This document shows positions 9,563 to 18,579 of a stretch of 33,615 nt of DNA, one piece after another. This stretch comes from Bacilli bacterium (GTDB taxonomy: Bacteria > Bacillota_I > Bacilli_A > RF39 > UBA660). The DNA lies in contig JAFOMI010000039.1 of the NCBI GenBank assembly GCA_017418945.1, forward strand, positions 1 to 33,615. Direction: 5' to 3'. The notes beneath the pieces are model-generated. The model had not been told where the DNA came from. It was given only the letters and a program-made list of their open reading frames with translations, and searched no databases. Positions within the stretch are counted from its first letter, which is position 1. Every line of letters starts with the position of its first letter. A program made the position numbers and the translations under genes.

Positions 9563-9944
9563 GGGGCTGTATTTGGCTTCGACAGGAATATAAGGTATTT
9601 AACTGCAAGTCGGAGGAACACGTTACGAACAAAAAGCAATAAATGCTAACAAAGTTAAAAACGTATTTGCATCACTATTCAGAAGTACTAGTGCTGCTTT
9701 AGCCTAATTATTTAAGGTAAATACACTTTCTATTTATTATTTTCTACGTAATTTATAGAGGGTTCGATTTTAGTAGAATATATTATTACTGATGTCTATA
9801 AGTAATAATGAATATTATAGACTTACTAAGTATTTAGGTTGTTAATTACTTTAGTATTTAGGAAATTTAATTAATTAACTAAACTTGTAGATGTTACTTA
9901 TTACGTATTTTTGGACAGGGGTTCAACTCCCCTCAGCTCCACCA
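9563..9944 (+). ncRNA. ssrA: Transfer-messenger RNA (tmRNA)
   Basis: A 382-base tmRNA. The 5' end GGGGCTGTATTTGGCTTCGAC and the 3' end GGTTCAACTCCCCTCAGCTCCACCA are diagnostic: GGGGCTG pairs with CAGCTCC to make the acceptor stem, the T arm is present, and CCA is encoded. The tag frame most likely resumes at the GCT at 9645-9647 and ends at TAA 9705-9707, giving 20 codons that begin ANKVKNVF and end SAALA. A GCA in the same frame nine bases earlier is an alternative resume codon. Rescued ribosomes add this peptide, which marks proteins for proteolysis. A strong promoter and a terminator make it an independent unit downstream of smpB and rnr. Confidence 0.97.
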
Positions 9945-10064: not shown

Positions 10065-10826
10065 ATGACGAAACAAGGAAAATTTGAAATGGCCCAAATA
10101 CTAGCTAGGTTAGATACTAGTATAGTAGATAATAATTTGCTTAAAGGAACTAGCATTAATCAAAGAACTGATTTTCAAAAAATAAATACAAAAATAGTTT
10201 TTAGTGAAAAAGCATCAAAGAAATTATTAAGTTTGGTGAAAAATGTGATTAGTACAGATTCTAGAGAATATGGTGTATACTTTTTTGGAAATATATATGA
10301 TGGTATTGTATATTTTGATGATTTTGGAAGTGACTTTGAATTGGCAGATGGTGTTTATGAAAATGGTGCGGTAGAAGTTACTCCACAAAACCTTAAGGAA
10401 TTAGATCAAAAAACTGAAAAAGAATTTACTGATAAACCTTGTAATACAGTAATGCATTTTCATACTCATCCTGATACAATGTATGAAAATGGTGAACCAG
10501 TTGTAATTCACCCATTAGTAATGTCGCAAAATGATTTATATAGTTATGGTTTTCACCAAAAGTATTTGCAACCAAATTCAGGTAATAAAGTAGTATATCT
10601 TGGTGGAATGCTTTCAAAAAATCATAATAAACCAGAATTTAGTATTGTTACTTTTGATACTATAGAAGAAGATTTTTATTATATGAATAATATATTCTTG
10701 TTTATGAATGATGAATTAGTAAGAGTAGATGTTAATAATTTTTTAAATACAAGTTTTATTCCTTTAAATCTAAATGAAGAAAAAAAGGCGAAAATATTAG
10801 AACTAATAAATAAAAAAAATGATTGA
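10065..10826 (+). CDS. JAMM/MPN-like metalloprotease-fold protein
   Basis: 253 residues with the metal-binding pattern of the JAB/MPN+ family: E68 in SREYGVYFFG, H133 and H135 in HFHTHP, then S154 and D157 in MSQNDLYS. This fits E...HxH...SxxD, the zinc site of deubiquitinase-like and DNA-repair-like JAMM proteins. The gap between HTHP and SxxD (18 residues) is longer than usual, and the N-terminal 45 residues and the C-terminal 90 are not familiar. No signal peptide is seen, so it is cytoplasmic. AAGGGGTGT precedes the ATG. No E1, E2 or ubiquitin-like gene is nearby, so the substrate cannot be guessed. It lies between ssrA and another unrecognised gene with its own promoter. Confidence 0.72.
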   Translation: MTKQGKFEMAQILARLDTSIVDNNLLKGTSINQRTDFQKINTKIVFSEKASKKLLSLVKNVISTDSREYGVYFFGNIYDGIVYFDDFGSDFELADGVYENGAVEVTPQNLKELDQKTEKEFTDKPCNTVMHFHTHPDTMYENGEPVVIHPLVMSQNDLYSYGFHQKYLQPNSGNKVVYLGGMLSKNHNKPEFSIVTFDTIEEDFYYMNNIFLFMNDELVRVDVNNFLNTSFIPLNLNEEKKAKILELINKKND

Positions 10827-10893: not shown

Positions 10894-11439
10894 ATGAAAC
10901 ATCAAACAATTGAAGAAGTTCAAAATAGAATAAGTTATTTAGAGAATGTTTATACAGATGCAAGGAATGCTACACTATTAAAGAAACCACTAGATGATGA
11001 AACAGAGTATTATTGTTTAAAACCAACAGAAGTTGCTTATAAGATATTAGGAAGAGCATATATTAGAAATGAAATACATAATTTAAAAGAAAAAGATCTA
11101 TCTGTTGGAGCCTGTGCAATTTTCTTTGATAAATCTAAGCTTTTTGATAAAATGTATTTAGATTATGCTTTTATTTCAAAAGAACAATATAAAAGAAAAT
11201 TAATAGATGCAATTAATCTATATCCTGAATTATATAATGATGAGGATATAGAATTAAAAGAAAAATATTTAGATTTGATTAATAAAGATATTAATTCTTT
11301 TATTTTAGAAGAAAAGGTTTGCTTTGAATTAATTAAATTAGAAAATGAAGAATTAAGGGAAGAATTAATTAAGAAACTTGATAAATATTTTAAAGATGAA
11401 GCAGAAAATAGTAAAAAGAGAAAAAAATTATTATTTTAA
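10894..11439 (+). CDS. Unrecognised cytoplasmic protein, 181 residues
   Basis: I do not recognise this protein. It is highly charged and predicted to be mostly helical, with no signal peptide or membrane segment. The first 30 residues (KHQTIEEVQNRISYLENVY) look like an amphipathic helix; a central part (PTEVAYKILGRAYIRNEIHNL, VGACAIFFD) may form a small fold; the C-terminal 60 residues are Glu/Lys-rich helices ending in a basic stretch (KKRKKLLF). The ribosome site AAAGGGG precedes the ATG by nine bases. It has its own promoter and terminator. The ribosome site and spacing resemble those of the JAMM-like gene just upstream, but this does not prove a shared function. Confidence 0.7.
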   Translation: MKHQTIEEVQNRISYLENVYTDARNATLLKKPLDDETEYYCLKPTEVAYKILGRAYIRNEIHNLKEKDLSVGACAIFFDKSKLFDKMYLDYAFISKEQYKRKLIDAINLYPELYNDEDIELKEKYLDLINKDINSFILEEKVCFELIKLENEELREELIKKLDKYFKDEAENSKKRKKLLF

Positions 11440-11448
11440 AATAGAATC

Positions 11449-11470
11449 ACTAGCATTGCTAGTTTTTTTA
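11449..11470 (+). terminator. Terminator after the 181-residue gene
   Basis: ACTAGC, loop ATT, GCTAGT and a T-run. Confidence 0.88.
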
Positions 11471-11517: not shown

Positions 11518-11547
11518 CTTTAATGCTGTAAAAAAGGAGATGTTTTT

Positions 11548-13509
11548 ATGAATAAAATTGATTTGGGAAAAACTAAAATAAATAAATTATTATTAACATT
11601 CTCAATACCTTGTGTTATTAGTATGTTAATTAATTCTATTTATAATATAGTAGACCAAATATTTATAGGAAAAGGTGTTGGTACTTTAGGTAATGCTGCT
11701 ACCAATGTTATATTTCCATTAGTAATTATTTTTAATGCTTTTGCAGGTTTAATTGGAAATGGAGCAGCTGCTAATCTATCTCTTAAACTTGGTGAAGATA
11801 ATAAAAAAGAAGCATCTAAAGGTATAGGGCAAGCCCTTGTAGTAACTGTATTTGTTTCATTATTTTTAGGAATTATTTCTTATGTATTTTTACCAAAGTT
11901 AATTTTAATGTTTGGATGCACTAAAAATGTATATAATTATGCACTTGATTATGGAAGAATAATATGTATTGGTACTCCATTTATGATTATTTATTCATCT
12001 TTATCTAATATTATTAGAGCAGATGGAAATCCTAAGTATTCAATGATAATGCTTGTAGTAGGAGCGATTATCAATATAATTCTTGACCCAATATTTATTT
12101 TTAAATTTAATTTAGGAGTAAAAGGCGGTGCTATTGCAACTATAATAGGACAATTTATTTCATTTATAATTGCGATATTATATTTAAATAAATTTAAGTC
12201 TATAAAAGTTACAAAAGAAAGCTTAAAATTAGATAAAGATGTATTTAGAGTTTTAGGACTTGGTTTATCTTCATTTATTACTCAAGGAACTGTACTTGTA
12301 TTATTTGTATTTATGAATAACGTTATGACTAAACTTGGTGCGTTATCTAAATTTGGACCTGATATTCCATTATCAGTATATGGAGTTATATCTAAAATAA
12401 ATAGTATATATATTTCTATAGTTCTTGGTGTATCTATAGGAGCACAACCTATTATTGGATTTAATTATGGTGCAGGTAATAAAGAAAGAGTTAGAGAAAC
12501 TATTAAGAAAGTTTTAATGATTAATGTTATATTTGGTATTATGTTTAATTTAGTATTCTTTATTTTTCCAAAAGAATTAGCAGGAATATTTATTACTAAA
12601 GATGATCCAAGTTATGATTTGTTTATGGAATTTGCAGTTTTAATGTGTAAAACTTTCTTTATGGTAATATGCTTAAATGCTGTTGAAATGACTGGAAGTA
12701 TTACTATTCAGTCATTAGGTAAAGTAAAAAAAGCAACTGCATTATCATTTATTAGACAAATTATTCTATTTATACCAATTGCATTATTATTATCTTTAGT
12801 ATTTAAAAAAGGAATCTATGGTATTTTATATGCAGGTTTTATTTCAGATAGTTTATGTTTTGTAGTTGCGTTATTCATTATTGGTTCAGAATATAAATTA
12901 TTAGGAAAAAAAGATTATAACAATGAAGAACATATTTATAATAATAATTCTACTTATAATGGTAAACATATTGTTGTTACAATTTCAAGAGAATATGCTT
13001 CTGGTGGTAGATATGTTGGTAAGATACTCGCAGATTTATTAGGTGTTAATTTTTATGATAAAGAACTTATTTATTTAGCGTCTAAAGAATCTGGGTTATC
13101 AGATAAATATATTAATGAAATAGATGAAAATAAAAGACAAACAGAAAATGATGATAGAATATTTATCGCTGAAAGTAAAGTAATTAAAAATATTGCGAAA
13201 AAAGAATCTTGTGTTATTGTAGGAAGATGCGCAGATTATATATTAAAAGATAATAAAGATACTGTTAAAGTATTCTTATATTCAGATGATAATAATAAAG
13301 TAAAAAGAGCCATTAAATATTATGGATTAAATGAAAAGAATGCTTTAAAAGAAATTAATAAAATAAATAAAGATAGAGAAAAACATTATAAGTTCTATAC
13401 AAATAGAAATTGGAAAGACTTTAAAAATTATGATTTAATAATTAATGTTGATAAACAAGGCACAGATAAGACTGCAGAAATTATTAAAAGTTATATTTTA
13501 AATAATTAA
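11548..13509 (+). CDS. MATE-family transporter fused to a cytidylate-kinase-like domain
   Basis: A 653-residue two-part protein. Residues 1 to about 452 are a MATE efflux transporter: LLLTFSIPCVISMLINSIYNIVDQIFIGKGVG at the N-terminus, repeated TM segments, FIIYSSLSNIIRADGNPKYSM and GAQPIIGFNYGAGN at the start of the second half. A polar Asn/Tyr-rich linker follows. Residues 472-653 are a cytidylate-kinase-like P-loop domain of the Cytidylate_kin2 type: VVTISREYASGGRYVGKILADLLG, FYDKELIYLASKESGLS, CVIVGRCADYIL, VFLYSD, and an Arg/Lys-rich lid (DREKHYKFYTNRNW). The frame is continuous, so this is one polypeptide with a cytoplasmic kinase-like tail on an exporter. AAAGGAGATG supports the start. 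Substrates of either half are unknown; a regulatory nucleotide-sensing role is possible but only inferred. Confidence 0.88.
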   Translation: MNKIDLGKTKINKLLLTFSIPCVISMLINSIYNIVDQIFIGKGVGTLGNAATNVIFPLVIIFNAFAGLIGNGAAANLSLKLGEDNKKEASKGIGQALVVTVFVSLFLGIISYVFLPKLILMFGCTKNVYNYALDYGRIICIGTPFMIIYSSLSNIIRADGNPKYSMIMLVVGAIINIILDPIFIFKFNLGVKGGAIATIIGQFISFIIAILYLNKFKSIKVTKESLKLDKDVFRVLGLGLSSFITQGTVLVLFVFMNNVMTKLGALSKFGPDIPLSVYGVISKINSIYISIVLGVSIGAQPIIGFNYGAGNKERVRETIKKVLMINVIFGIMFNLVFFIFPKELAGIFITKDDPSYDLFMEFAVLMCKTFFMVICLNAVEMTGSITIQSLGKVKKATALSFIRQIILFIPIALLLSLVFKKGIYGILYAGFISDSLCFVVALFIIGSEYKLLGKKDYNNEEHIYNNNSTYNGKHIVVTISREYASGGRYVGKILADLLGVNFYDKELIYLASKESGLSDKYINEIDENKRQTENDDRIFIAESKVIKNIAKKESCVIVGRCADYILKDNKDTVKVFLYSDDNNKVKRAIKYYGLNEKNALKEINKINKDREKHYKFYTNRNWKDFKNYDLIINVDKQGTDKTAEIIKSYILNN

Positions 13510-13536
13510 GAAGAAACTTTTTGTTTCTTCTTTTTT
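13508..13536 (+). terminator. Terminator after the MATE-kinase gene
   Basis: AAGAAGAAAC, loop TTTTT, GTTTCTTCTT and T-run, overlapping the stop codon. Confidence 0.9.
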
Positions 13537-17052: not shown

Positions 17053-18579
17053 ATGAAAAAAAATAAGAAATTACTATTAACTTATTTATTTTCTATATAT
17101 GATAAAATAAAAAACAACTATCCATTTCTAGCTCAGCAAATAGATATAAATAGTTTAAAAGATGAAATAATAACTTCTAATAAAGGTACTCATGAGTTAA
17201 AAAGTAAGATAGATGAAATTTATATGGATGAATTATCAAATTATCTAGATAAAAAAAGAGAAGTTGCATTAGTTAATCCATATTTTGAAGAAAAAGAATA
17301 TAAAAAATTTACTTATGATTATGATTTATGTAAATATTTATTAATTCAAACAAATAATAAGATTCAATTATGTGAATATGAAATGCCAAAATTAATAAAT
17401 GAGTTATCAATTGATGATTGTAAGAATATAGTATACGATTTTTTTAAAGAACTATATAAAGATGATGATTATGTAATGGATAATGTTAAAAATATTTTGT
17501 TTAATAATGTTAATATTTTTTATGAAAATATTAGAAGTTATTCTAATAAAGCAACTAAAGAAATATTTATTGAATATAGTAACGATTTAAGTTTTTTATT
17601 AACATTAGTTCATGAATTAGGTCATATGATTTCATCAATAAATGATAATAAATTATCTAGAACTGATGCTAGATTAATAGAAATAGAATCTTCTATAATG
17701 GAAAAATTATTTTTAAAATATTTAAAGAGTAAAGAATTAAAAATATTAAAAGATTCAAACTCTAAAAAAAGATCTTTAAATCAAAATGATTTGGATAATT
17801 ATTTAATTATGAATTATGCTTTTTTATCATTTCTTGCGGATGATATAGTAAGTGAATATAATTTTTATAATGTACTTAAAGATGGAAAGTTTAAAAAAGA
17901 TTCCCTAAAAGAATATATGAGTGAATCTAAAAAGAATTATTTAAAAGCGTTTGGAGATATAAATTATACATTAAATAAATATATACCATTTTCATTAAGA
18001 AATGAAGAAATTAATAAATTAGAATTAACTTCTTTAGACGATGATATTTTAGAAAAAATAGAATTAAATTCAATGTATGTAAATATAAGATATATATCAA
18101 GTTATTTAATTGCGTTTTTCTATGGTGATTTAATTAAAAATGAGGAAGTAGTAGATGTTTTTAAAACATATTTAAAAGATCATTCTAATTATTCATATAA
18201 ATATTTTACTAAAATGTTAACTGTTAATTTAGATGAAGTATTCTCTCTTTCTACTTTATTCATAGAAAAATATAAAAAGATTTTAAAGAAAAAAGGATAT
18301 AAATTAGAAACAAATCTATATTTTGTTGATAAAGATATAAAAGAGGATATTGATATATGCAAAAAAAGAAAAAAATATATATTAGAAAACCCTTGGTATT
18401 TAAAACTATTTAATGATTTATTAAAATTAGGAAATATTACAAATGAAAAAGATATAGAAATAGATGGAGATCCTAATAAAATAATATATCAGATGGATGA
18501 TTGGGAAAAAGATGAATATATAGATACAATGGATAGAGTTAAAAAAATTATGAAATTATATATAAAAGAAAACGAGTAA
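17053..18579 (+). CDS. M3-like zinc metallopeptidase (oligoendopeptidase F relative)
   Basis: 508 residues, almost wholly helical and without a signal peptide. The zinc motif is H187-E-L-G-H191 in FLLTLVHELGHMIS, with a likely third ligand E212 in LIEIESSIMEKLF about 21 residues on. This pattern is that of the gluzincin family M3, whose oligoendopeptidases trim short peptides in the cytoplasm. Canonical PepF is about 600 residues and has a longer N-terminal part, and I do not see its full C-terminal signature, so this is a diverged or shortened member. AAGAGGTG precedes the ATG. It has its own promoter and terminator and no clear functional link to nrdD. Substrate unknown. Confidence 0.72.
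   Translation: MKKNKKLLLTYLFSIYDKIKNNYPFLAQQIDINSLKDEIITSNKGTHELKSKIDEIYMDELSNYLDKKREVALVNPYFEEKEYKKFTYDYDLCKYLLIQTNNKIQLCEYEMPKLINELSIDDCKNIVYDFFKELYKDDDYVMDNVKNILFNNVNIFYENIRSYSNKATKEIFIEYSNDLSFLLTLVHELGHMISSINDNKLSRTDARLIEIESSIMEKLFLKYLKSKELKILKDSNSKKRSLNQNDLDNYLIMNYAFLSFLADDIVSEYNFYNVLKDGKFKKDSLKEYMSESKKNYLKAFGDINYTLNKYIPFSLRNEEINKLELTSLDDDILEKIELNSMYVNIRYISSYLIAFFYGDLIKNEEVVDVFKTYLKDHSNYSYKYFTKMLTVNLDEVFSLSTLFIEKYKKILKKKGYKLETNLYFVDKDIKEDIDICKKRKKYILENPWYLKLFNDLLKLGNITNEKDIEIDGDPNKIIYQMDDWEKDEYIDTMDRVKKIMKLYIKENE

Follow-up and report, generated by a model that had tools for sequence, protein, structure and literature searches.

A single gene in the 33,615-nucleotide stretch of DNA that was analysed (the window) joins a MATE exporter to a Cytidylate_kin2 domain. 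This fusion is an accessory gene and not an artefact; selection has kept it in dozens of uncultured bacteria, both halves are under purifying selection and maintained, and the union of MATE and kinase arose repeatedly. Our tentative reading, for which we put the chances somewhat short of even, is that the gene encodes a self-contained H+-driven MATE exporter in which a tethered nucleotide-binding domain on the cytoplasmic side regulates transport. The two domains belong to known families and their combination is presumably already listed in domain databases, while a published function for the fusion was not found in the open literature. The first-pass annotation was likewise aware of no tested function, and our literature search, with most subscription journals outside its reach, found no paper that describes or tests a MATE-Cytidylate_kin2 fusion.

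The fusion gene occupies positions 11548 to 13509 of the forward strand, as do all features described here within and directly around it, and is translated as a single uninterrupted frame of 653 amino acids plus stop. It is preceded by a ribosome-binding site (AAGGAG, 11534 to 11539) 8 nt 5' of the ATG. The MATE transporter domain with its two MatE repeats comprises approximately 450 residues (residues 1 to 448; 11548 to 12891). It is followed by a polar and variable linker of about 25 amino acids (residues about 449 to 474; 12892 to 12969), which coincides with low model confidence over residues 449 to 470, and by the Cytidylate_kin2 (PF13189) domain with a P-loop NMP-kinase fold (residues about 475 to 653; 12970 to 13506). 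Translation, Pfam, TIGR00797 and an AlphaFold model thus bear out the first-pass annotation, which had described one continuous frame composed of a MATE transporter, a polar linker and a Cytidylate_kin2 domain. The base composition shows no break at the MATE/kinase junction. Terminator-like hairpins, recognized by pattern match only, are located upstream of the gene (11449 to 11463) and at its stop codon (13508 to 13532), and because they lie on both sides, the fusion gene is probably a separate transcription unit.

The assignment of the membrane part is based on profiles and on structure prediction. MatE was matched twice by Pfam, with the best stretch covering residues 21 to 182 (E 1.1e-44), and the TIGR00797 MATE model gave 194 bits against a cut-off of 147. 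In the AlphaFold model, which is shallow (four sequences) and of moderate confidence (mean pLDDT 66.9), this part adopts a 12-helix-type MATE fold, with 4LZ6/5C6N as best match (TM 0.88 of target). The 12-helix fold is common to DinF-BH (4LZ6) and PfMATE (3VVN, 4MLB) of the MOP superfamily (TM 0.82 to 0.88 of target), and DinF-BH is 31% identical to the MATE part of the fusion. Both exporters also have the two MatE repeats, the helix-1 Asp and D180 in common with the fusion, but the listed solved MATE matches stop short of the C-terminal domain, by which the fusion is extended by about 180 residues. D36 and D180 are invariant in all 38 fused MATEs of the main clade, and we take them by motif position to be equivalent to the coupling aspartates D41/D184 of PfMATE and D40 of DinF-BH. 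Their conservation makes proton-driven export a reasonable default for the MATE half, and the exported compound would be a small amphiphile or a drug.

The C-terminal half was matched by the full Cytidylate_kin2 profile (residues 476 to 636, profile positions 1 to 176; E 1.2e-47, 162.8 bits against a cut-off of 28 in Pfam). As an alpha/beta domain in the AlphaFold model, it resembles 3HDT and 3FDI (TM 0.84 to 0.91 of target), with which it shares the fold, the kind of variant P-loop and 38% and 32% identity, respectively. Unlike the fusion, these proteins are chains of 201 to 223 residues without a transporter part. Both are structural-genomics entries, titled 'putative kinase' and 'uncharacterized protein', and a literature search for functional papers on them found none. 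The motifs of the family, R-[EQ]-x-G-S-G-G-[RHK], G-R, and the LID Arg and Tyr, are present in the window's domain. They correspond to a variant P-loop, R481-E-Y-A-S-G-G-R488 (12988 to 13011), to G559-R560 as the counterpart of the GRD motif of the CMP kinase Cmk (13222 to 13227), and to a LID region with R587 and R610 (13306 to 13377). Position 484 is Ala instead of the family Gly, as in 40% of the window's subtype.

A profile-profile (HMM-HMM) comparison of the domain with Cmk sequences, one from E. coli and nine from the window's genus (E 7e-9), reveals a homologous core, consisting of the P-loop position, the GR motif and the LID region. The P-loop aligns without gaps (IDGPSGAGKGT in Cmk versus ISREYASGGRY in the window) and places the Walker-A Lys on Gly487, a position that is Gly in 47 of 47 fused and in 48 of 49 separate domains, the remaining one being gapped. 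The alignment has gaps in place of the CMP-recognition segment (SGAIYR in E. coli) and of much of the NMP-binding insert, and the TIGR02173 CMP-kinase model yields only 38 bits, under its cut-off of 102.1. A study of Thermus CMP kinase (PMC7259600) describes the Walker-A Lys as a bridge between donor and acceptor and Arg126 as the residue that holds the acceptor phosphate. We take Arg126 to be the Arg of the GRD motif; its counterpart in the fusion is R560, which is invariant in all fused domains and conserved in 78% of the separate ones; R610 is invariant in every sequence. The designation as a nucleotide kinase, for which conservation of the P-loop and lid residues had been suggested as a check, therefore stands only in part: although no family motif is broken (R481, GG-R488, GR560, R587, R610), Gly takes the place of the Walker-A Lys throughout the PF13189 sample and the CMP-recognition segment is gone. 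For these two reasons CMP-kinase activity should not be assumed, and 'cytidylate kinase' as a name for the PF13189 domain reflects homology only. A housekeeping role in CMP phosphorylation was rejected, because the same genome has its own, ordinary Cmk (contig C23).

Two main groups, A (with the window) and B, can be distinguished among the fused kinase domains. Type-A domains retain every family motif including the LID R587, like the separate copies. In type-B domains, E482, G486, R488 (replaced by K) and R587 are not constant, and among the 22 type-B fused sequences the LID R587 is lost in all but about one. A degenerate pseudokinase in the window is thus unsupported, as drift is limited to the type-B fusions; the window's domain appears as intact as any in the family, with phosphate transfer as a putative activity. 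The type-B fused domains (e.g., L107 to L111) differ from the sampled separate Kin2 domains in a P-loop of the form R-x-H-G-[ST]-x-G-K, in which the His is invariant, and in the loss of the LID arginine, and they may represent a functionally distinct subtype. The degenerate Walker A, together with the drift of the type-B P-loop and the loss of E482, G486 and R587, would suit a non-catalytic, ligand-free scaffold or dimerization module that stabilizes or positions the exporter. We consider this quite improbable, as such a module would not be expected to keep invariant charged active-site residues, and R481, G487, G559, R560, R610 and Y614 are found in 47 of 47 fused sequences.

The architecture is not confined to the window. 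Three independent MAG records from public collections carry the fusion at 65 to 72% identity over nearly the full length, and a kinase-domain query found matches in 46 of the 193 genomes of the window's family. Inspection of the fetched loci showed MATE and kinase in one gene in 41 of these 46 genomes, a number that includes several genes cut by contig ends and four interrupted frames (G059, G060, G098, G145), which represent frameshifts or assembly errors. Beyond this family, fused genes are present in four or more further families of the class (G205, G305, G457, G596/G620). Within the window's own genus the distribution is patchy: of the 11 remaining genomes, a near copy (80% identity) turned up in G009 alone, where it runs off the contig end after residue 401. 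This patchiness, with the sole other near copy truncated, could result from a chimeric assembly or from neutral read-through that merged two unrelated adjacent genes. Such an origin is exceedingly improbable, however, given the three MAG records, the dozens of further genomes and the similar selection on both halves; a chimeric contig is ruled out because the fusion recurs in the three MAGs and about 40 further genomes, and assembly fusion was accordingly rejected. The two parts, which might have turned out to be always separate in relatives, are commonly fused, and separate forms next to a MATE gene pair with it in an operon-like manner. Pairwise dN/dS (NG86, seven computable pairs) was 0.07 to 0.14 for MATE and 0.05 to 0.18 for the kinase half, values that are rough because dS was near or above 1 in some pairs; the closest pair (dS about 0.2) gave 0.076 and 0.093, respectively.

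The fused transporters occupy two distant places in the MATE tree, one being a large clade that includes the window and the other a clade in which L086, L112 and L124 are grouped with the MATEs from the Lachnospira eligens and Roseburia operons. Forcing a single fused MATE clade cost 244 log-likelihood units (p-AU 1.7e-72), and one origin of the fusion was thereby rejected on the MATE side, whereas a single fused clade on the kinase side was not rejected (p 0.545). It follows that different MATEs were joined to the same or closely related kinase lineages.

Kinase and transporter also occur as adjacent separate genes, namely 13 bp apart in L. eligens and Roseburia sp. 831b, 41 bp apart in Phocaeicola massiliensis and overlapping in Prevotella oral taxon 299. 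These four pairs are biased toward adjacency, because the query was the whole fused protein. Less affected by this choice are 41 non-redundant separate Kin2 loci that came from other searches, nearly all of them with only the kinase domain as query. A MATE gene is the immediate same-strand neighbour at five of them (L138, L139, L208, L210, L222), compared with a rough chance expectation of about 0.1 to 0.2, estimated from about five MATE genes per 1,500 to 2,000 genes in a genome. The kinase comes first in some of the five and the MATE in others; across the Kin2-MATE pairs, both gene orders were seen, with gaps of -11 to 41 bp. L210 is a MarR-Kin2-MATE operon.

Partners other than MATE were also found. 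On the reverse strand of L117 (4924 to 7710; G173, contig C42), Kin2 forms the C-terminus of an MMPL/RND-type transporter of 929 amino acids (E 4.6e-50 for MMPL, 5.9e-46 for Kin2), and the G173 genome contains this MMPL-Kin2 fusion in addition to a type-A and a type-B MATE fusion. In L126 (4379 to 5759, reverse strand), the partner of Kin2 is a portion of a DUF6198 membrane protein, and this portion is seemingly split over two frames. In two genomes, separate Kin2 genes follow a pair of large genes by 20 to 21 bp on the reverse strands of L119 (3949 to 8472) and L120 (1890 to 6438); in L119 both large genes encode ABC exporter half-transporters. On the Ruminococcus albus plasmid pRUMAL02 (L230, 1627 to 5821), Kin2 is placed 15 bp after an SLC13 permease gene and just before Trk potassium transporter genes, and a further separate Kin2 is located beside an amino-acid ABC ATPase gene. 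A general transporter link of separate Kin2 genes is suggestive only, as membrane genes made up 10 of 35 close neighbours versus 26 of 156 in the background, which is no significant enrichment (p 0.086). The fused loci showed no conserved flanking genes in some 33 contexts, which argues against a dedicated biosynthetic product and led us to reject the idea that the fusion belongs to a gene cluster for biosynthesis or resistance. PADLOC gave no match that would indicate anti-phage defence, and the fusion was not found in viral contigs, which speaks against viral spread.

Several of these observations would fit enzyme-coupled export, in which the domain transfers phosphate to a drug, a nucleoside analogue or a metabolite, and either the product or the compound in its original form is exported by the MATE. 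None of the family's invariant residues is lost in the window's subtype, neither R560 as the acceptor-phosphate Arg nor the LID arginines, purifying selection is strong, the MarR-Kin2-MATE operon looks like a drug-inducible detoxification unit, and fusions plus operons in both gene orders suit enzyme-transporter pairs. Against this stand the Gly that replaces the donor-acceptor bridging Lys in the family sample, the near-complete loss of the LID arginine from the type-B fusions and the presence of the same domain on an MMPL transporter. Enzyme-coupled export is a serious competing reading, although we consider it less likely than not.

Control of transport by the tethered domain is favoured over both enzyme-coupled export and a scaffold because the partners are unrelated transporters, the catalytic Lys is gone and the phosphate-binding arginines are kept; a single domain shared by unrelated transporters is more readily understood as a control module than as an enzyme with a specific substrate. 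The first-pass annotation had left a choice between phosphorylation of the substrate at the membrane and gating of transport by nucleotides, and the domain's occurrence on an MMPL transporter leans towards the latter. In the proposed mechanism, the Cytidylate_kin2 domain would hang in the cytoplasm from the exporter by a flexible tether and would bind a nucleotide or a similar phosphorylated ligand via the variant P-loop and R481, R488, R560, R587 and R610. It may then open and close in cis, with LID closure as in NMP kinases, and this movement could set exporter activity. CBS and RCK/KTN domains are cytoplasmic nucleotide-sensing domains on transporters and would offer a functional parallel, i.e., a soluble ligand-binding domain on a transporter, although their fold is unrelated to that of Cytidylate_kin2. 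Two findings count against control: the window's subtype keeps every family motif, as an active enzyme would, and separate Kin2 genes lack a significant enrichment of membrane genes beside them. The broader proposal, that Cytidylate_kin2 is a hitherto unrecognized and transferable nucleotide-sensing module which, fused to MATEs of several lineages and to MMPL, ABC and other transporters or encoded next to them, couples their export to a nucleotide signal in the cytoplasm, is rather unlikely at present.

PF13189 is usually annotated as 'cytidylate kinase-like', although genuine CMP kinases have a catalytic lysine and a CMP-recognition segment that are both missing from the domains sampled here, and we found no paper in the literature searched that assigns a function to the family. 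Its repeated association with exporters is a concrete lead on the role of this domain, and MATE exporters, which are otherwise simple secondary transporters, gain a possible cytoplasmic control or substrate-modifying part.

Near the fusion gene, the window contains three predicted proteins (10065 to 10826, 10894 to 11439 and 17053 to 18579) without a Pfam or NCBIfam match at E 0.001. A tmRNA gene at 9563 to 9944 encodes a tag peptide of 20 residues, ANKVKNVFASLFRSTSAALA, which seems long.
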